A DNA stretch of 64,000 nucleotides from Alloalcanivorax marinus (GTDB lineage: Bacteria; Pseudomonadota; Gammaproteobacteria; Pseudomonadales; Alcanivoracaceae). The stretch covers positions 1-64,000 of the forward strand of contig NZ_JADDOL010000014.1 in assembly GCF_016906305.1 (NCBI RefSeq). Reading direction: 5' to 3'. A model generated the notes under the pieces. The model did no database searches. It saw nothing but the letters and a program-made list of their open reading frames with translations, and was not told the origin of the DNA. This document shows positions 3,877-32,855 of this stretch, piece by piece. The translations under genes were made by a program, and so were the position numbers. Position 1 is the first letter of the stretch. The number at the start of each line of letters is the position of its first letter.

Positions 3877-4629
3877 TCAGTAAGCGCCGGACAGCAGGGC
3901 GCCGGCGCCGGGGACGACGGGTTCCAGGTCCAGGGCCTTGAGCATCTGGTAGGTGGTGGCGATGGCGGCGGTGACCACCGGCTTGCCGGTGAGCGCCTCG
4001 ACTTTCGGCACCGCCGCCAGGGACGGCATCTGCACGCAGGCGGACAGTACGATGGCGTCGGCGTCGGAGAAGTCCATGCTGGCGACGATGTCGGGCAGCT
4101 TGGCGGTATCGTGACGGGCCACGTCCAGGTTGTTGGGGATTTCCAGGGCGCGGTATTCCAGCACCTCGGTGCCTTCGCGCTGGATGTAATCCACCACCAT
4201 CTCGGTGAGCGGCTTCATGTACGGCGCCACCACCACGACCTTCTTGGCCCCCAGCACCTTGAGCGCGTCCACCAGGGCGCCGGCGCTGGTCACCACTTCG
4301 GTTTCCTGGCCGTTTTCCTTGGTGCGCTCGCGCAGGCGCTTCTGGGATTCCCGGTGGTAGCCGGGGCCCATGGACATGATCGCCACCAGACAGGCATAGC
4401 CCATCACGTCCACGGCGGCGTCACTGAGTTCCAGGGCGCAGCGGTCGGACTCGCCGTCCATGGCCGCCAGCTCTTCCTTGCTGACGGTCTTCATGCGCAT
4501 GCGGCTGGAGTGGAAGGTAAAGCGCTCCGGGCGGATCAGTTGCCGGGCGGTGAGCATGGCCGGGATCTCGGTCTCCATGGTGATGTTGGAGCTCGGTACG
4601 ATCTGGCCGATTCGATAGGGTCGCGTCAT
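3877..4629 (-). CDS. nicE: Maleate cis-trans isomerase NicE (Asp/Glu racemase superfamily)
   Basis: 250-aa cytosolic enzyme converting maleate to fumarate, the last step before the TCA cycle. The two catalytic cysteines of the family are at Cys80 (GYACLVAIMSMG) and Cys198 (LSACVQMPSL), matching the spacing of the P. putida enzyme. The PSSNITMETEIP motif at residues 12-23 is typical of maleate isomerases. The start is supported by GGAGAG just upstream. It lies 23 bases after nicD and 25 before nicF. Confidence 0.93.
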   Translation of the reverse strand: MTRPYRIGQIVPSSNITMETEIPAMLTARQLIRPERFTFHSSRMRMKTVSKEELAAMDGESDRCALELSDAAVDVMGYACLVAIMSMGPGYHRESQKRLRERTKENGQETEVVTSAGALVDALKVLGAKKVVVVAPYMKPLTEMVVDYIQREGTEVLEYRALEIPNNLDVARHDTAKLPDIVASMDFSDADAIVLSACVQMPSLAAVPKVEALTGKPVVTAAIATTYQMLKALDLEPVVPGAGALLSGAY

Positions 4630-4652
4630 GCTTCTCTCCTTGAGGAGGCGGC

Positions 4653-6695
<2,043 letters not shown>

Positions 6696-6896
6696 CCTCT
6701 TTTTACGATTGCCGCCGTGACCCAGGTCATGTCCGGCGTGGCGGGAGGGTGTAAGGGGATAAGCGACGTTTTTTCGCGCTAAAAAGTAAATTCGTGGGTG
6801 TTTTTCGCGCTTTGCCCGGCCATGGTGCAGACCGGGCCAGCACCGCGCAAAAGCGGTGCATGCACCATATTCAGAGAAAAAACAGGGAAGAGGTAT

Positions 6897-9800
6897 TCAG
6901 CGTTGCCGGCGCCCTTCGGTGAGGGTCAGCACGGTGGCGGTGAGCGCCGGCAGGAAAGTGACGGTGACGATGGCGGTGCCCAGCAGGCCGAACAGCACGA
7001 TGGCGCCCACGCCCCGATACAGTTCGGTGCCTTCGCCGGGCAGCAACACCAGCGGCGCCAGCCCGCACACCGTGGTGATGGTGGTCATGGCGATGGGCCG
7101 CAGGCGCGAGCGCACCGCCTCGCTGACCGACTCCGCCACCGGCCGCCCCTGGCGACGGTTGGTCAGCGCTTCATGGACGATCAGGATCGGGTTGTTGACC
7201 ACCGTGCCCATCAGAATCAGAAAGCCCAGCATGGAGATCATGTCGAACGGCTGGCTGAAGCCGGGCAGACCCAGCCACGGCAGCAGCGCGCCCAGACCAT
7301 TGAGCAGCGCCAGGCCAAGAATGCCGCTGGCGATGCCCACCGGAATGGTGGTCATGATCAGCAGCGGGTAGCCCCAATGGGTGAAGATCGCCACCAGCAG
7401 CAGATAGATCAGCAGCAGCGCCACCACGTAATTGCCGGTGAGGGCGTCGCGGGTGGCGTCCAGCTGGTCGCTGGCGCCGGAAATGTCCACGCTGACCCCG
7501 GCCGGGATCGCGCCTTCCTCGCGGAGCGCGCCGATCACCTGTTCGCGCACCGTGCGCACCCCGGTCTCCAGGGCCACCGAGCGCGGCGGGATAATGTTCA
7601 GGGTCACGGTGCGGCGGCCGTTGACCCGGCGCACGGTGCTGGTGTCCACGGTTTCCACCAGGCTCGCCACGGACGACAGCGGCACCGTGGCGCCTAGCGG
7701 CGTGTGCACCGGCAGCGCCGGCAGTTCCGACAGCGCCGGGTCCACGCCCCGGTGGCTGTAGGCGTAGATGTCCACCTTGTCGTCGCCAAGAAAGAACTCG
7801 TCCAGATAGGCGCCGTCGGTGAGCGCCGCCACGGTGAACCCCAGCTGCTCGGCGCTCAGCCCCAGTTCCTCGGCGCGCTCCCAGTCCGGGCGCACCTCCA
7901 GCAACGGCTGGGCCAGGGACAGGCTGGCCGGCTGGCTCTGGATGCGGGGGCCGTCGAACACCTGGTCGGCGCGCCGGTAGGCGGCCTGGGCCACCTGGAA
8001 CAGGGTGGCCAGATCGTTGCCGGAGATGTCCAGATTGACGCTGCGGGTGCCGCCGTCGTTGCTGGAAATGATCGAGCCCCGGGCGGCGAAGGCGCGCATG
8101 CCCGGGTAGCGCTCGTAGAAGGCGGTGAGGGCGTCCATCAGCGCGTCCATGTGCGCCGGGTCCACCGGTTCGGCGATCACCCGCAGGCCCTGGGTGTCCA
8201 CGTACAGGTTCAGGTAGCGCAGCGGCGGCGCCGGCAGCTCGCCGGCCTCCCAGGCCGCCGGGTCGGCGTCCACCAGGGGCAGAAAGTGCGCCTGCACCTG
8301 CTCGCCGATCTCCGCCATGGCCGCCAGGTTGTAGCCCGGGGGCGCGTTCATGGAAGCGAAGGTCTTGGCTTCCTCGCCCTCCGGCAGATACTCCGCCGGC
8401 GGCGTCAGCAGCACGATCACCAGGGTGCCGCCCAGCAGGGTGGCGCCGATCACCGTGGCCCGCCGGGCGGCGGAGGCGGACAACCAGGCGGACAGGCGGT
8501 GCACCCGGGCCAGCCAGCGGCTGTCCTGGCCCTGATGGTCGAACACGGCGTCGAAATCCAGGCGCGCCGCCAGGGTCGGAATCACCGTCATCGCCACCAG
8601 CATGGACACCAGAATCGAGGCGGACACGGCGATGGCGATGTCGGAATAAAGCTGCCCGGCCTCCTGCTGAATGAACACCACCGGCAGGAACACCAGCACC
8701 GTGGTCAGGGTGGAGGCGAACACCGCCGGCCACACCTTGCGGATGCCCTCCACGGAGGCGCGCAGACGATCCAGGCCCCGGCGCCGTTCGATCTCGATGC
8801 TCTCCAGCACCACGATGGAGTTGTCCAGGGTCATGCCGATGGCGAAGGCCACCCCGGCCAGGGAAATCACATTGATGGTGCGGCCGGCCAGCAACAGTCC
8901 GAGAAAGGCGGCGATGGTGCAGATCGGGATGCCCACCACCCCCAGGGCGGTGACCCGCACCGAGCGCAGGAACAGAAACATCACCAGGGTGGCGAACAGG
9001 GCGCCGATGGCCAGATTGGTCCAGACGTTGGCCACCGAGGCTTCCACATAGCGCACGTCGTCGGAGATCAGCGCCATGCGCAGTCCGGCGGGCTCCAGCA
9101 CCTCCCGGTTGATCAGCGCCACCTGATCGAGCATGGCGTACTTGATGTCGATGACGTTGGAGCCGGTTTCCCGGCGCACCGCCAGGGTGATCACCGGCTC
9201 GCCGTCCACCCGCGACAGGCCGCGCACCGGAAAATGGTCCAGGGCCACCGTGGCCACGTCGCGCAGGCGAATCACGCCGTCACCGCGCCGTGCCAGCACC
9301 AGTTCCTCCAGCTCCGGCACCTGCTCGAAGCGGCCCACGGTGCGCAGCAGGTAGCGGCGCTTGCCGCTGTCCAGCTCGCCGCCGGACACGTCCCGGTTAC
9401 GCTGGCGCAGGGCGTCGCGCACCGTCATCACGGTGAGGCCGCGCTCGGCCAGCCGTTGCGGGTCCAGCAGCACCCGCACCTGGCGTTCGGCGCCGCCGCG
9501 CAACTCCACCTGGGACACCCCGGCCACGCTCTCCATGCGGGTGCGCACCTGGTCGTCGACGAAGTCGCGCATCATGTCCAGGTCCAGATCCTTGGGATTG
9601 CCCGGTTGCGGCGAAACCCGGAAGTACATGAAGGCGTTGGCGGAAAAGGAGGTGGAAAGAATGCGCGGCTGATCCACGTTGTCCGGGTAGTCCGGCACCT
9701 GGCTGAGGGCGTTGTTGACGCGGATCAGGGTCTCGGTGATGTCCACGCCGAACGGGAACTCCAGCTCGATCTCCGCCTCGCCGCTGTAGGCGGTGGCGGT

Positions 9801-29430: not shown

Positions 29431-30172
29431 ACCGCGGCGCGCCGAACCGGCACCCCCCGAGTCCGGCCCGGCCCCCCGGGTGCTGGTGATCGACGATGAA
29501 CCGCAAATTCGCAAGTTCGTCGACATCAGCCTGCGCGCCCAGGGCTACCGCACCGAGCTGGCGGACACCGGCGGCCAGGGGCTGGCCGTGCTGGCCAGCA
29601 AGGGCGCCGATCTGGTGATCCTGGATCTGGGCCTGCCGGACATGGACGGCCGCGAGGTGCTGATCGAGCTGCGCCAATGGTCGCCGGTGCCGGTGATCGT
29701 GCTCACGGTGCGCGCCGACGAGGCGGAAAAAGTGGCGCTGCTGGACGCCGGCGCCAACGATTACGTGACCAAGCCGTTCGGCATCGAGGAACTGATGGCG
29801 CGCATCCGGGCGTTTCTGCGCAACGCCCATCGCGGCCAGGATGCGGGCCCGGCGTACGACGATGGCGAACTGCGCATCGATCTGGCGCGCCGGGACGTGC
29901 GGCTGCACGGTGAACCGGTGACGCTGACGCGCAAGGAGTTCGCCTTGCTGGCCACGCTGTCCCGGCAACCGGGCCGGCTGATCACCCAGTCGCAGCTACT
30001 GCGCGAGATCTGGGGGCCGACCCATGTGCAGGACGCTCATTATCTGCGGATCCTGGTGGCGAAGCTGCGCCAGAAGCTCAAGGACGACGCCACCGCGCCG
30101 CGATACATCATTACCGACCCGGGCGTGGGCCTGCGATTCCTGGAGCGGACCCCGCCCGGGGATCCTCGTTGA
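29414..30172 (+). CDS. kdpE: Response regulator KdpE (OmpR family)
   Basis: 252-aa regulator. The receiver domain has DDEP (acidic pocket), phospho-Asp in VILDLGLPDMDG and Lys in VTKPFG. An OmpR-type winged helix follows (LTRKEFALLATLSRQPGRLITQSQLL; HYLRILVAKLRQKL). The start is GTG 29414, overlapping kdpD by 17 bases, with GAGGAGCAGG just upstream. The N-terminus carries about 20 extra residues rich in Pro and Glu before the receiver. Its stop (30170-30172) sits 3 bases from the left end of the dif-inserted element. Confidence 0.95.
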   Translation: MTPNTEPRRAEPAPPESGPAPRVLVIDDEPQIRKFVDISLRAQGYRTELADTGGQGLAVLASKGADLVILDLGLPDMDGREVLIELRQWSPVPVIVLTVRADEAEKVALLDAGANDYVTKPFGIEELMARIRAFLRNAHRGQDAGPAYDDGELRIDLARRDVRLHGEPVTLTRKEFALLATLSRQPGRLITQSQLLREIWGPTHVQDAHYLRILVAKLRQKLKDDATAPRYIITDPGVGLRFLERTPPGDPR

Positions 30173-30175
30173 GTA

Positions 30176-30302
30176 CGTGTAATTCCTGCTTATGTTTATA
30201 GGGCCGGTGATCGGTATAATTTTTGGCCGGTCGCCGGCCCGGCATCCTGCGTCGGGATAATCTCTTTCCCGGCGCAGGATTGAACATAGGCAACATTATG
30301 CG
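30176..30302. repeat. Inverted dif-like pair forming a CTXphi attP-style bulged hairpin
   Basis: Arm 30176-30198 and arm 30281-30302 are complementary in two blocks. CGTGTAAT (30176-30183) pairs with ATTATGCG (30295-30302), eight pairs including two G-T. GCTTATGTTTA (30188-30198) pairs with TGAACATAGGC (30281-30291), eleven pairs including two G-T. Between them is an unpaired bulge of four against three bases. The outer block resembles a XerC arm and the inner a XerD arm, so single-stranded phage DNA would fold into a Xer site with a bulged centre. CTXphi uses this design to integrate ssDNA at dif. Confidence 0.65.
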
Positions 30303-30306
30303 GGCT
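30279..30306 (-). other. Inverted dif-like sequence
   Basis: Read on the minus strand, this 28-base site agrees with the E. coli dif consensus at 20 positions. The XerC side keeps CGCATAA followed by TGT; the XerD side reads CTATGTTCAAT against TTATGTTAAAT. The centre differs (TGTTGC against TGTATA). Its orientation is opposite to the functional-looking dif at 32828-32855. Confidence 0.6.
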
Positions 30307-30333
30307 TGACTGTAGTCAAGCCGGATAGCTATC
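30303..30333. repeat. Two adjacent palindromes
   Basis: GGCTTGACT (30303-30311) and AGTCAAGCC (30314-30322) form a perfect inverted repeat with a two-base centre; GATAGCTATC (30324-30333) is a second perfect palindrome. They abut the inverted dif-like sequence. They could be protein sites or part of the phage origin structure. Confidence 0.5.
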
Positions 30334-30353
30334 TGGAGCTATTCATAGAGACG

Positions 30354-30388
30354 CTGTTAGTTGATGATTTCTAATCATCGGCTGACAG
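30354..30388. repeat. Long hairpin in the element's non-coding region
   Basis: CTGTTAGTTGATGATT (30354-30369), loop TCT, AATCATCGGCTGACAG (30373-30388): a 16-pair stem with three G-T pairs on this strand. Multiple hairpins in the intergenic region are characteristic of filamentous phage, where they serve as complementary-strand origin or packaging signal. Confidence 0.6.
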
Positions 30389-30398
30389 TGTCCAGCAA

Positions 30399-30458
30399 GG
30401 GGAGGGGGAATGGGGATGGATGCGCGCAGCGCGCGCACCACCCCCATCCCCCTTCCCC
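30399..30458. repeat. G-rich/C-rich hairpin with GCGCGC tip
   Basis: A G-rich arm (30399-30419, runs of four, five and four G) is nearly complementary to a C-rich arm (30438-30458). The tip is a perfect stem, TGCGCGC/GCGCGCA (30421-30427, 30431-30437). The G-rich strand could also form a quadruplex. It lies directly downstream of the repressor gene's stop, with no T run. Confidence 0.55.
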
Positions 30459-30461
30459 GCG

Positions 30462-30941
30462 CTAGCCACGTTCGGCTGCTTGGCTGTAATACTGTTCCTC
30501 TTCTTCCTCATGGATCATTAGGGCGATTTCTTGCTGGTCTTGTTCTTCTGTCCCCAGTCCATAGCTAATTCCAAGAGCCACTTCCTCGGGGATCCCACCT
30601 GTAGATCTCACCGTCTCTGTGATTGAAGTAGCTAAGTAGTACTTCTCGATCAGGTTAAGCAGTGCAGCTTTGTCCGCCGCGGGGAGCGTTTCAGCAAGTC
30701 TGAGGCTTCGCTCAAGCATCCTGGATAACCCCCCTTGTGTTGGCATTTCCAGCAAGTCGTTGGCCGAACAGTCCAGCGCCGCTATGAGCTTATAGATGGT
30801 GGATACCTTCGCATCCGCCTCGTTCCTTTCCAGCTTTGAGATGTGGCCGAGCTTAAGGCCCGCCAGGTCAGCAAGCTGGCCCTGGGTTAGCCCTGCGAGC
30901 TTCCTCAGGCGCTTTAAGTTATCCCCGAGAGGCATTTTCAT
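30462..30941 (-). CDS. XRE-family repressor of the filamentous element (RstR position)
   Basis: 159-aa regulator. Residues 8-62 form a classical Cro/cI-type helix-turn-helix (LKRLRKLAGLTQGQLADLAGLKLGHISKLERNEAD). A helical middle follows, then a very acidic tail (IHEEEEEQYYSQAAERG). The start at 30941 has GGAGG nine bases upstream. It is divergent from the replication gene, as rstR is from rstA in RS1/CTXphi, and presumably represses the promoter at 30996-31024. It is longer than RstR (about 112 aa), so it is an analogue by position and not a proven orthologue. Confidence 0.88.
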   Translation of the reverse strand: MKMPLGDNLKRLRKLAGLTQGQLADLAGLKLGHISKLERNEADAKVSTIYKLIAALDCSANDLLEMPTQGGLSRMLERSLRLAETLPAADKAALLNLIEKYYLATSITETVRSTGGIPEEVALGISYGLGTEEQDQQEIALMIHEEEEEQYYSQAAERG

Positions 30942-30995
30942 GAGTTGGATTCCTCCTTTGGAGGTAAATATACCCCTCCTTTTCGTGCTTTAGGA

Positions 30996-31036
30996 TTGAC
31001 TTGGTTCTACAGGGGCAATTAAATTCCCTCTGTAGA
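30996..31036 (+). promoter_or_regulatory. Replication-gene promoter with overlapping inverted-repeat operator
   Basis: -35 TTGACT (30996-31001), 17-base spacer, -10 TTAAAT (31019-31024). An inverted repeat straddles the -10: TCTACAGGGG (31006-31015) against CCCTCTGTAGA (31026-31036). A regulator bound there would block the promoter. On the other strand a TATATT at 30972-30967 may be the repressor gene's -10. Confidence 0.65.
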
Positions 31037-31102
31037 GTGATTGACAGGGGTCAGGGGCATGACGATTGGGGAAGGCGGAAAGTCCAGTAATACCCGCCTT
31101 TT

Positions 31103-31117
31103 GTCTCATTTTGAGAC
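31103..31117. repeat. Palindrome in the replication-gene leader
   Basis: GTCTCA, TTT, TGAGAC: a perfect 6-bp stem between the promoter and the GTG start at 31133. It could be a second operator, an attenuator or part of the origin; nothing in sequence decides. Confidence 0.45.
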
Positions 31118-31132
31118 TCGCGGGGGACGCTG

Positions 31133-32164
31133 GTGATCGATTGGGTGACCTGCGAGCTTCCCTTTGTGCATCAGCCTTTGGAGTCCGGATTGGTCTGCAA
31201 GCTGGCAGCAGATGGGGAAGTCGAGTGGGCCACCCGCTGCCGAGTGCAAGTCCAGGGGTCGCATGAGTCCAGCATTCAGGTGCGAAGCGTCGATGGTGAT
31301 GGGGCAGGGCACGCCACCGGGCTTCTCTTCAGCGGCAACCCGTCCAAGTTTCTTCAGGGTCATAACGTCTTCGGCAGTGATGACCTGGTCACCCTGATGT
31401 ACGACACCTTCCTTGTGCTTTGTCGGGCTCTCGGCCTGTCTCCGAGTCTCCAGGAGGTGAGGGCGGTCAAGCGCGGCGACTATCCACTATCCATGGTGGA
31501 TATCAACCAGTCCTACGAGTTGCCGACCCGTCAGGACGTTCTCGCCTGGATTCGCGCTGCCGAGTTCAAGTCCCGCACTCGCCACGGCCGGCCGCAGATG
31601 AAGGGGGGAACGCTTTACTGGGGTAAGACCTCTCAGCGCTGGGCGCTCAAGGTCTACAGCAAAGGGGAGGAGATCGAGGCATCCAAGCATCAGCTCCCCG
31701 ACGATCTTCTATCCACGCCGATACCCGCTTGGGCAGATAATAAGTTGCGACTCGAGCTTAGGATTAAGAAAAAACAGCTTACAAAACACGACATTACGAT
31801 AGCCAGAGACATGACTGCAGACAGAGCCAGAGAGCTATTTTCCGAATATGTGAGGAAGCTGGAGATGAATGAACAGGTCGCTTTATCATCAGAGGAACAG
31901 TTGGCGCTTCCCCAGAAGCTGCGCTCCACCTATATCTTGTGGCGTTCCGGAGAAGACCTCCGCCACACATTGCCGAAGGCCACGTATTACCGGCATCGCA
32001 ATGAGTTGCTTCCCTACGGCATCGACATCGCGATTTCCCGTGACGTCGTCGATCGCTCTAACGTGGTGCCGCTGATCCGAGTCCTTGAAGCCACTCCCGC
32101 CGGCATCCCTGAGTGGGCTTTCCAGCAGCGTTTAGTCCATCGGTCGGCTGCCCCTATAGCCTGA
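31133..32164 (+). CDS. Filamentous-phage replication initiation protein, gene II/X (CRI) family
   Basis: 343-aa protein. The start is GTG 31133, five bases after GGGGGA. The N-terminal MIDWVTCELPF is the characteristic opening of the phage/plasmid II/X replication proteins, followed by FSGNPSKFLQGHNVFGSDDL and, mid-protein, the YGKxxxWxxKxYxKGxE-like LYWGKTSQRWALKVYSKGEEIEA. Such proteins nick the double-stranded origin to start rolling-circle synthesis. RstA of CTXphi and pII of Xanthomonas phages have similar length. The C-terminal third is less characteristic. Lower GC than the chromosome. Confidence 0.88.
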   Translation: MIDWVTCELPFVHQPLESGLVCKLAADGEVEWATRCRVQVQGSHESSIQVRSVDGDGAGHATGLLFSGNPSKFLQGHNVFGSDDLVTLMYDTFLVLCRALGLSPSLQEVRAVKRGDYPLSMVDINQSYELPTRQDVLAWIRAAEFKSRTRHGRPQMKGGTLYWGKTSQRWALKVYSKGEEIEASKHQLPDDLLSTPIPAWADNKLRLELRIKKKQLTKHDITIARDMTADRARELFSEYVRKLEMNEQVALSSEEQLALPQKLRSTYILWRSGEDLRHTLPKATYYRHRNELLPYGIDIAISRDVVDRSNVVPLIRVLEATPAGIPEWAFQQRLVHRSAAPIA

Positions 32165-32230
32165 TGGATATCCAGCCTTGGCAGGTTCTGATCACTAGTC
32201 TGATCCTGCTTTATCTATACGGGAACTGAC

Positions 32231-32527
32231 ATGCTTACGCTTACTGGAGAAGTTCGGAAGGTACTTTCCAGCGGCTATACCAGTCGCAAGACAGGTGAAC
32301 AGGTTAACCAGGCCATCTTGGTTCTTGAGCCTGATAATCGACGTTACAACTACGAGATACACCTAAGTGCCAATCAGCTCAAGAAAGGTGCCCTAAGCAC
32401 TTGGGAGGCGCTTAAAGGGCAGACGGCCACTATCGAGGCCACGCTCTACGTGAACCATCAATACGGCTTTCACAAGTTCGTTGCCGCCGGCGACGCTCAG
32501 CCCATTAAGGAGAAGCGCAATGGATAA
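32231..32527 (+). CDS. Small probable ssDNA-binding protein of the element (gene V/RstB position)
   Basis: 98-aa protein, predicted mostly beta (TLTGEVRKVLSSG; YNYEIHLSANQL; TATIEATLYVNHQYGFHKFVA), consistent with a small OB fold. In filamentous phages the gene after the replication protein encodes the ssDNA-binding protein, and RstB of RS1 sits here. Xanthomonas phage gene V proteins are of the same length. The function is inferred from position and fold impression, with no diagnostic motif. It overlaps the next gene by eight bases. Confidence 0.6.
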   Translation: MLTLTGEVRKVLSSGYTSRKTGEQVNQAILVLEPDNRRYNYEIHLSANQLKKGALSTWEALKGQTATIEATLYVNHQYGFHKFVAAGDAQPIKEKRNG

Positions 32528-32828
32528 CCCTCTGGATCGTTTGCACATGGTCGCTGATGCTTTCGAGGAGTTCGCTCATATCTACCAGGAAGCTCAGCAC
32601 AGCGGTGTCGATTCTAATCATCTTGAAGTTCCCAACCTGCTTTTTTTCTTCCAGCAGCATCTGATCGATCTTCCTGATGACATGGAGTCCTTTTTGAGTC
32701 AGAAAATGGAGGAAGCTCGTTCTGGTCAGCCTAAACAGATTAGCTTGGCTGATGCCGGAATTACCGGTAAGCCAGTCTCTAGCTGGGAGGAGTTGGAGGC
32801 TTCTTCTACTTCTGAAACTTCCAGATAA
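32520..32828 (+). CDS. Small acidic protein of unknown function (RstC position)
   Basis: 102 aa from ATG 32520, which overlaps the previous stop and has AAGGAG upstream. Acidic and mostly helical (MVADAFEEFAHIYQEAQ; NLLFFFQQHLIDLPDDMESFLSQKMEEA), with a Ser/Thr-rich tail. I do not recognise it. Its slot, last before the right dif, is that of the RS1 antirepressor RstC, but there is no visible sequence reason to call it that. The gene ends exactly where the dif XerC arm begins, so the insertion site lies directly at its stop. Confidence 0.7.
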   Translation: MDNPLDRLHMVADAFEEFAHIYQEAQHSGVDSNHLEVPNLLFFFQQHLIDLPDDMESFLSQKMEEARSGQPKQISLADAGITGKPVSSWEELEASSTSETSR

Positions 32829-32855
32829 TTACGCATAATGTATATTATGTTAAAT
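32828..32855 (+). other. Chromosome-dimer resolution site dif (right junction of the element)
   Basis: 28 bases agreeing with E. coli dif at 25 positions. The centre and XerD arm are perfect (TGTATA, then TTATGTTAAAT, 32839-32855); the XerC arm reads ATTACGCATAA. This is the XerCD site at the replication terminus and the expected target of Xer-using phages. The imperfect outer XerC arm may come from the inserted element. Confidence 0.88.

Follow-up and report, generated by a model that had tools for sequence, protein, structure and literature searches.

Introduction

RS1, a satellite of CTXphi in Vibrio cholerae, is an element of ~2.7 kb that encodes a divergent RstR repressor, an initiator, an SSB gene and a small gene and is without morphogenesis genes; RstA belongs to the Rep_trans family. 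An autonomous plasmid is reportedly also an inovirus satellite, to go by the title of Schmid et al. 2024 (doi 10.1128/aem.00246-24). The filamentous-phage satellites at dif in the literature surveyed come from Vibrio cholerae. For CTXphi, a forked hairpin formed from two inverted sites ~90 bp apart has been described (PMC4246890, PMC3089051).

Here we describe an element inserted in the window, by which we mean the whole 64,000-nt stretch of Alloalcanivorax marinus DNA that was analyzed. The element is similar to RS1 in size and gene order and, like RS1, is without morphogenesis genes, is inserted at dif and has an inverted attP pair (the pair being taken from CTXphi data). It differs from RS1 in that its initiator is of the II/X family, its third and fourth open reading frames have no detectable relatives in the databases searched with them, no helper was found in its genome with the models used, and its relatives are spread over several other families of Gammaproteobacteria. 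These relatives are ten further elements of similar design, with initiators 51-63% identical, so the minimal, little-described element of the initial annotation is not unique.

Results

The element is inserted at dif between hybrid Xer-type junctions

The initial annotation had placed four open reading frames in a low-GC stretch at 30173..32855 with a dif at its right end. All of these are present, with a GC content of 53.9% for the element against 66.9% for the whole window; the low-GC insertion stood but its exact limits did not, since the hybrid XerC junctions bound the inserted DNA at 30183-32838 (2656 bp).

30183..32838, + strand: inserted element, bounded by hybrid XerC junctions, flanks matching the empty site of congener G002
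30172..30182, + strand: host XerC arm of the split dif at the left junction, AGTACGTGTAA
30183..30200, + strand: element-derived half of attP1 (7-bp centre, TTCCTGC; XerD-like arm, TTATGTTTATA)
32828..32855, + strand: regenerated dif, element XerC arm ATTACGCATAA with host centre TGTATA and host XerD arm TTATGTTAAAT

The "dif-like" sequence on the left is a hybrid in which the host XerC arm (30172-30182) is followed by a centre and an XerD-like arm contributed by the element (30183-30200), while the right junction sets the element's own XerC arm on the host centre and XerD arm. The dif, CGCATAATGTATATTATGTTAAAT, is present as a single copy in the 4.05-Mb assembly when up to 3 mismatches are allowed, and its chance occurrence was ruled out, as none appeared when the window was shuffled 100 times. 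Among ten congeneric dif sites examined, the XerC arm AGTACGTGTAA is identical in two, and ACGTGTAA forms the end of the XerC arm in five.

An empty dif, which the initial annotation had proposed looking for in related genomes, was found in congener G002. This site, AGTACGTGTAATGTATATTATGTTAAAT, lies behind the same gene as the element's site and both of its flanks match the element locus, the left over 591 bp (91.5%) reaching dif and the right over 988 bp (88.1%) starting ~95 bp past dif; congener G004 (locus L012) has the right flank alone in common (915 bp, 82.3%). Taken with the hybrid arms, this empty site establishes the insertion at dif that had been claimed, and the insertion is of the IMEX kind, namely XerC-type at a dif that is regenerated, with no integrase of the element's own. 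None of the four open reading frames matched an integrase in Pfam and PHROG searches. Because the junctions are hybrid, we infer that XerC itself acted in the insertion.

The initiator belongs to the gene II/X family

The gene order is RS1-like, as first annotated, with a divergent repressor followed by the initiator, a possible SSB and a small open reading frame.

30462..30941, - strand: XRE-family repressor, RstR-like, 159 aa (HTH_3, 7.7e-13)
31006..31036, no strand: inverted repeat with 15-nt arms, 87% complementary, probable repressor operator
31072..31117, + strand: putative double-strand (nicking) origin hairpin of gene II/X type (motif with GTAATA loop; covarying stem)
31133..32164, + strand: gene II/X rolling-circle initiator, 343 aa (Phage_CRI, 2.4e-71; G2P_X_C, 3.7e-21)
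32231..32527, + strand: ORF3, 98 aa, possible OB-fold single-stranded-DNA-binding protein (weak PDB structure matches)
32520..32828, + strand: ORF4, 102 aa, orphan, start overlapping the end of ORF3

Profile scores identified the initiator as a II/X protein rather than an RstA-type one (TIGR01629, 234 bits, cut-off 29; PF05144), and its score against PF02486 was 22.2, under the cut-off of 29.6. A tblastn search of phage records gave six matches, to Lineavirus I2-2 (two records), three Dulem viruses and one gut inovirus, with none to a Vibrio phage; identity to the I2-2 gene II/X protein was 47.3%. Direct kinship with RS1, as the initial annotation had it, was rejected because the initiator falls within the II/X family and no Vibrio phage was among these matches. 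The element would work like RS1 but is not RS1, given the family of its initiator. The non-Vibrio host was correctly called, since this genome and one from Reinekea belong to a single order.

The repressor gene is divergent from the initiator gene, and its best NCBIfam match, phage_RstR (NF041951), reached 43.2 bits where the cut-off is 80. The inverted repeat at 31006..31036, judged from its sequence, is probably the repressor operator. It overlaps a promoter-like site at 30996-31025, one of five in the element region against 1.8 expected, and by eye a resembling sequence lies upstream of rep in relatives L016, L079 and L080.

The origin motif occurs once in the window. It was found in L079 and in 20 of the 43 initiator loci scanned, including all nine other minimal loci in that set, I2-2 and pTA144 Up, and had no match in 200 shuffled 7-kb controls; the E. 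coli inovirus record L102 and Methylovulum locus L030 share it too. Its stem reaches at least 5 bp in every one of the 16 copies aligned (with halves re-dealt, a mean of 3.1 and a maximum of 9); the 16 stem strings all differ, some by length alone, with about nine different cores by eye. A gene II/X initiator with an origin hairpin is common to the element, Lineavirus I2-2 and Ff-type inoviruses, although the I2-2 origin lies ~410 bp ahead of gene II and the element's 46 bp ahead of its initiator. I2-2 also carries genes I, III, IV, V, VII, VIII and IX, none of which is recognizable in the element, and it is reported not to integrate (PMC7307601), whereas the element lies in dif.

Structural genes are not recognizable and ORF3 may be an SSB

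No coat, adsorption or Zot/gene I protein was recognizable among the element's open reading frames in Pfam (above cut-off), PHROG and NCBIfam searches, in agreement with the initial annotation's statement that coat and Zot genes are missing. That annotation had also proposed searching the rest of the genome for an inovirus helper; in the element's own assembly, Zot models (E up to 10) and DUF2523 models matched nothing. Across the genus, two genomes gave a Zot match out of 13 searched, this one included. Helper packaging is proposed only because of the inoviral kinship, the Zot search having been empty in the own genome and in nine of the ten relatives' genomes searched, and the element may accordingly be described as a candidate dependent of a helper inovirus.

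ORF3 had no Pfam match above cut-off and none in PHROGs or NCBIfam. Its single-sequence structure model is of low confidence (pLDDT 49.8), and 49 of the best 50 of its 593 PDB matches at E ≤10 are titled SSB or PriB, the best at E 0.012 and none at E 0.001; from this model, ORF3 is possibly an SSB. Sequence searches with ORF3 gave one match in phages (E 0.5) and none in plasmids or to an L019 open reading frame, and eight stretches in IMG/VR met its pattern, none of which was confirmed. ORF4 had no match in the family libraries (Pfam, PHROG, PADLOC, NCBIfam) and its single-sequence model is helical, also at low confidence (pLDDT 54.6).

attP1 and attP2 form a predicted forked hairpin

When joined with the right-end XerC arm, attP1 has a 7-bp spacing and 3 mismatches in 18 scored bases. 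A second, inverted site lies within the left end of the element, with two hairpins between the sites.

30201..30240, + strand: hairpin, first fork prong between attP1 and attP2 (fold; repeat I6)
30244..30280, + strand: hairpin, second fork prong (fold; repeat I4)
30279..30306, - strand: attP2, inverted dif-like site, AGCCCGCATAA TGTTGC CTATGTTCAAT
30303..30458, no strand: non-coding, holding three further hairpins at 30303-30322, 30350-30392 and 30399-30458 (fold, repeats)

attP2 has 2 mismatches in 18 scored bases. When the first 200 nt were shuffled 2000 times, no shuffle had fewer than 3, and 2434 other 200-nt stretches, which overlapped and covered both orientations of the window, gave 6 at best. 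The joined ends were predicted to form a forked hairpin of -49.6 kcal/mol (0 of 200 shuffles as good), with a z of -9.33 that is inflated because two strong hairpins are included. By this prediction, the inverted attP1 and attP2 fold into an Xer site as those of CTXphi do, although their centres are 7 and 6 bp long against 12 and 5-7 in CTXphi. Beside the XerC cut, attP1 has one base (T) in common with dif, against three shared by attP1 of El Tor CTXphi and dif1 (PMC3089051).

The 7-bp centre of attP1 is also that of the 29-bp dsDNA attP site of VGJphi, and the same element could have integrated as dsDNA through a single such site (11+7+11), with attP2 irrelevant and the insertion consequently reversible by XerC. 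The 11+7+11-bp layout resembles the attP of VGJphi and VEJphi, the XerD-like arm TTATGTTTATA retains 8 of the 11 bases of TTATGTTAAAT, and the junctions of L018, L020 and L022 are single XerC-arm ones where no inverted pair was noted. We nevertheless regard this route as rather unlikely, given that the position of CTXphi attP2 is occupied here by another, inverted site with 2 mismatches, that the pair folds, and that the attP1 centres of L016 and L019 (10 and 9 bp by eye) are longer and closer to CTXphi.

The attP pair is not general among relatives. It was recovered in L019 (z -5.66, 0 of 200 shuffles as good) and in L016 (z -3.23, 0 of 200), where the sites are paired in the centroid and unpaired in the minimum-energy fold; the L080 fold was equaled by 49 of 200 shuffles (z -0.62), and the folds of L018 and L020 held no inverted pair. 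The exact attP had no match in IMG/VR. The stretch at 30303..30458 could possibly serve as a packaging signal or complementary-strand origin; Rfam returned seven sub-threshold microRNA models only, every one on the 30399-30458 hairpin.

We consider the element to be probably an integrated inovirus-type satellite that is likely capable of its own replication, a reading drawn from its sequence. Its repressor would silence rep until relieved, whereupon the initiator would nick the origin and rolling-circle replication would yield (+) single strands, which ORF3 may shield. An incoming strand would fold so that attP1 and attP2 pair into an Xer site, and host XerC would join the strand to dif, where a dif would remain. 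To spread from cell to cell, the element would rely on an inovirus for coat and export proteins; no such inovirus was found in this genome with the models used. The observation itself is real, and inovirus satellites are an already known kind, here with a II/X initiator design.

Relatives of the same design cluster with the element

Units measured in six of the ten relatives are 2.4-3.5 kb long. L020 and L079 contain tandem copies, L016 is a circle, and L018, L020, L022 and L080 are inserted at dif; no dif-type bounds were found in L015, L021 and L079. The element and its ten relatives cluster in the initiator tree, none of 500 label shuffles giving so low a value. For the first tree, 68 loci and the window were supplied and 63 rows kept, with four loci excluded by a 270-residue filter (broken initiators included) along with duplicates L072 and L076; group support was 94/94. 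The second tree, from 43 selected loci and the window with long branches and near-copies excluded, needs two changes when free, while 35% of bootstrap trees need one, and forcing the 11 together was not rejected (p-AU 0.57, log-likelihood 2.18 above the free search). The group of minimal elements is therefore firm as a cluster but not proven to be a single clade.

These relatives bear on whether the element began as a full-length inovirus prophage and shed its structural genes once inserted. The inovirus replication half is indeed present and the structural genes absent, but both junctions, the origin and all four open reading frames appear intact, its size and design recur in relatives from other families of Gammaproteobacteria as tandem copies, a circle and dif insertions, and all ten cluster with the element; we rejected such decay as highly improbable.

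The II/X miniplasmids, of which six were fetched, offer another comparison. Like the element, plasmids such as pTA144 Up have a II/X initiator and, in three of six cases (L099, which is pTA144 Up, L100 and L103, but not L098, L101 or L104), the origin hairpin. The element could on these grounds be an integrated miniplasmid, that is, a II/X rolling-circle plasmid with an acquired Xer site and no virion stage, for which dif would provide stable inheritance. The existence of such plasmids at 1.8-2.8 kb is consistent with this, as is the lack of Zot or DUF2523 matches in the own genome and of Zot in nine of ten relatives' genomes. However, the six miniplasmid tables, incomplete per PLSDB, list no gene opposite rep, unlike the element, and all six miniplasmids in the first tree, or five in the second, fall outside the minimal group. 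The repressor-initiator block, moreover, is arranged as in inoviruses, for example a 6964-bp P. aeruginosa record whose repressor is of the RstR family, and an attP1/attP2 pair is typical of filamentous phages. We therefore judge a miniplasmid origin unlikely. A nucleotide search of plasmids with the element gave no match.

The titles and abstract openings surveyed contained no description of such a coat-less II/X group. Compared with the V. cholerae satellites, this group has a different initiator, a CTX-like attachment hairpin in some members, and a range of several families, mostly with no helper in the same genome. It makes directly testable whether such satellites are packaged by passing inoviruses and whether they are kept by dif insertion alone. 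Tentatively, and at somewhat less than even odds, the group may be a long-lived, deeply diverged coat-less II/X lineage that is distinct from complete inoviruses, occupies dif sites across Gammaproteobacteria, rides visiting filamentous phages and swaps a small cargo slot able to hold anti-phage defence genes; outside Vibrio, satellite-borne defences would then have a docking site in dif. Two relatives, from Glaciecola and Alteromonas, carry defence-like cargo genes, which likely serve phage defence, and if this cargo defends the cell, these elements would be carriers of mobile immunity in <3.5 kb, alongside tailed-phage satellites.

Insertion of the element at dif

The initial annotation described four ORFs, a fall in GC content and a dif site, and all of these are present. 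The insertion is an Xer-exploiting element on an Ff-type replication module; its insertion, gene content and kin are read directly from sequence. Its features are as follows.

30183-32838: inserted element, 2656 bp, GC 53.9% vs 66.9%
Left junction: host XerC arm AGTACGTGTAA, then foreign DNA
Right junction: foreign XerC arm ATTACGCATAA, then host centre and XerD arm
Joined element ends: attP1, ATTACGCATAA TTCCTGC TTATGTTTATA
30279-30306: attP2, inverted dif-like site inside the element, AGCCCGCATAA TGTTGC CTATGTTCAAT, 2 mismatches in 18 scored bases
31072-31117: putative II/X nicking origin between repressor and initiator; hairpin, loop AGTAATA, then TTTTGTCTCATTTTGAGAC
32231-32527 (+): ORF3, 98 aa
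32520-32828 (+): ORF4, 102 aa

With up to 3 mismatches allowed, the dif core CGCATAATGTATATTATGTTAAAT is single-copy, both in the window and in the whole 4.05-Mb assembly. Of 13 genus genomes, own included, 11 have one such site each; none was found in the other two (G008, G010). The ten other congeneric sites have an identical centre and XerD arm and a variable XerC arm, which ends in ACGTGTAA in five of them, and this pattern explains the two hybrid junctions of the window. The bounds of the element follow from the switch between host and foreign XerC arms at both junctions. An empty dif site, sought in related genomes, was found in the congener G002, whose left flank match (591 bp, 91.5%) reaches dif and whose right flank match (988 bp, 88.1%) begins ~95 bp past it. 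The insertion breaks no listed gene and starts 10 bp past the stop codon of a gene for a response regulator, which we, like the initial annotation, take to be kdpE.

Gene content

Prior art for such satellites includes RS1 and, judging by the title of a 2024 paper, a plasmid that is an inovirus satellite. The element had been called an RS1-type satellite: it would work like one, but membership of RS1 fails on the initiator, a gene II/X family protein (Phage_CRI 2.4e-71; G2P_X_C 3.7e-21; TIGR01629 above cut-off). The repressor is XRE-type as proposed, and RstR is its best NCBIfam model, although the score of 43.2 bits is below the model's cut-off of 80.

ORF3 and ORF4 matched no PHROG, NCBIfam or PADLOC model, and no Pfam model above cut-off. 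Although the single-sequence structure model of ORF3 is poor (pLDDT 49.8), 49 of its 50 listed PDB matches have SSB or PriB titles, with a best E of 0.012 and none reaching 0.001. We therefore treat an SSB-like ORF3 as a structure-model lead; the element's ssDNA may be shielded.

A putative II/X nicking origin

The most likely role of the hairpin at 31072-31117 is that of the II/X nicking origin, from which the element would replicate. A scan found its motif at one place in the window, in 20 of 43 initiator loci and in 0 of 200 shuffled 7-kb controls, which preserve base composition only. The 20 include all nine other scanned minimal loci, i.e. those of the element's coat-less design (L015-L022, L080), inovirus-type loci (L023, L024, L030, L034, L040, L065, I2-2 and L102) and plasmids (pTA144 Up, L100 and L103). 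The minimal locus L079, outside the 43-locus list, also has it. At the scan settings it was not found in the other 23, which include most Methylobacter-type inoviruses as well as L096, L097, L098, L101 and L104.

The motif lies 45-64 bp upstream of the initiator in minimal loci (46 bp in the window) and 273-661 bp upstream in complete-type loci, except L030 (47 bp). A stem of at least 5 bp forms in 16 of 16 aligned copies, which by eye have about nine different cores; when stem halves were re-dealt among sequences, a mean of 3.1 of 16 formed a stem (maximum 9). The Reinekea locus L015 has a second copy ~689 bp upstream of its initiator, possibly the trace of an adjacent unit or of a remnant.

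Predicted attachment structure

As controls for attP2, 2000 shuffles gave 3 mismatches at best, and 2434 other 200-nt stretches gave 6. The attP strand is predicted to fold (-49.6 kcal/mol, z -9.33, 0 of 200 shuffles as good) so that the XerC arms pair with each other and the XerD arms likewise, with an unpaired centre between them and two further hairpins past the XerD arms, and this folded strand may be what integrates. CTXphi has two inverted sites ~90 bp apart, which give its (+) ssDNA a forked hairpin (PMC4246890, PMC3089051). Two features count against a purely CTXphi-like reading: at 7 bp, the centre of attP1 has the length seen in VGJphi, which integrates reversibly as dsDNA, and a single base beside the cut matches dif. 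The stretch from attP2 to the repressor gene holds a 60-nt hairpin (30399-30458), a candidate for packaging, origin or terminator roles.

Relatives of the element

One scan of genome contigs gave 24 loci, and gene content was read for 12. By eye, eight (L015-L022) have an initiator and XRE gene with no recognised structural gene adjoining, and L023 and L034 resemble complete inoviruses with a Zot-like ORF; L024 and L026 were put in neither class. In the order sample (390 genomes, E ≤1e-20), four genomes besides our own had a match: G240 and G315 joined the set, G367 proved to be the source of the Reinekea contig L015, and G173 was left out. The class sample (369 genomes) gave four matches besides our own, three at 39-43% identity and one a 105-residue stretch at 54% that contains a stop. 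The initiators of the minimal relatives are 51-63% identical to the window's.

Units of the minimal loci (the first six well bounded)
L018: 2696-bp unit, at dif
L020: two tandem copies, 3174 bp each; array end at dif
L022: array of 295-, 3202-, 2761- and 215-bp units, ends at dif; initiator in 3202-bp unit
L080 (G315): 2974-bp unit; contig terminates in dif
L079 (G240): two copies, period 2442; no recognisable dif
L016: 3566-bp contig with 99-bp terminal overlap, therefore probably a circle of 3467 bp
L017, L019: contigs of 3.2 and 3.0 kb
L015, L021: no ends established

The tandem copies at L079:5514-7976, in a single-contig genome, are flanked by a short repeat instead of dif; the left-edge repeat is, by eye, a perfect palindrome with 13-bp arms. 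In the Alteromonas flava dif array (L022:6327-12505), one unit carries the II/X initiator, while its neighbour has the same left-end region followed by another type of rolling-circle initiator (PF23343). A single attachment module thus seems to serve replication modules that are unrelated to each other. On the reverse strand, ORFs of 72-78 aa at L020:4159-4377 (phrog_17464, 2.1e-6), L022:6345-6563 and L017:23-259 resemble the II/X initiator C-terminus, in the manner of a gene-X-like protein encoded separately, close to the attachment site.

Phylogeny of the initiators

In a tree of 63 initiators, the 11 minimal ones, window included, form one group (94/94), separate from a 41-row group containing I2-2 and IMG/VR phages. 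They also cluster in a second, 44-row tree (none of 500 label shuffles scored as low), where G240 leaves the group in a free search and a single clade is neither rejected (p-AU 0.57) nor demonstrated. Since the group was partly picked by BLAST rank, the trees support a lineage but fall short of proof. In the 63-initiator tree, the initiator of the 1960-bp plasmid L098 (NZ_CP025210.1) groups with that of Moraxella pTA144 Up (100/99). The recorded source of L098 is Corynebacterium diphtheriae, where a plasmid of this type is unexpected.

Candidate helper phages

Packaging would fall to a visiting inovirus. The Zot (PF05707) and DUF2523 models gave no match to the helper proposed in the initial annotation in the element's own genome. 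Zot was likewise not found in nine of ten relatives' genomes, although this absence is weaker evidence, as the search could overlook a diverged Zot and several of these genomes are draft assemblies or MAGs; the same nine had no DUF2523 match. The exception, G407 (the genome of L019), has 14 Zot matches on 13 contigs, and its assembly resembles a bin rich in inovirus contigs. DUF2523 was found in the three genomes with Zot: G407, G006 and G008. With Zot in 2 of 13 genus genomes, possible helpers circulate in the genus. The Zot- and DUF2523-bearing inoviruses of these congeners (L077 in G006, L078 in G008) have an adjoining 327-328-aa ORF, integrase-like by eye, and no dif-like site in the retrieved stretch at up to 6 mismatches.

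Cargo of related elements

L020 encodes a 287-aa protein (4380-5243) matching a PADLOC TIR effector model (2e-10), but no Pfam TIR model, as well as functionally uncharacterised PHROG families (5e-36), and L022 a 234-aa protein (6593-7297) matching PD-T7-4 (1.1e-6) and DUF4145 (2.7e-10). Complete filamentous prophages of Vibrio are reported to have a variable locus that houses defence genes (PMC11630473); the defence-model cargo of L020 and L022 sits inside dif-borne mini-elements.
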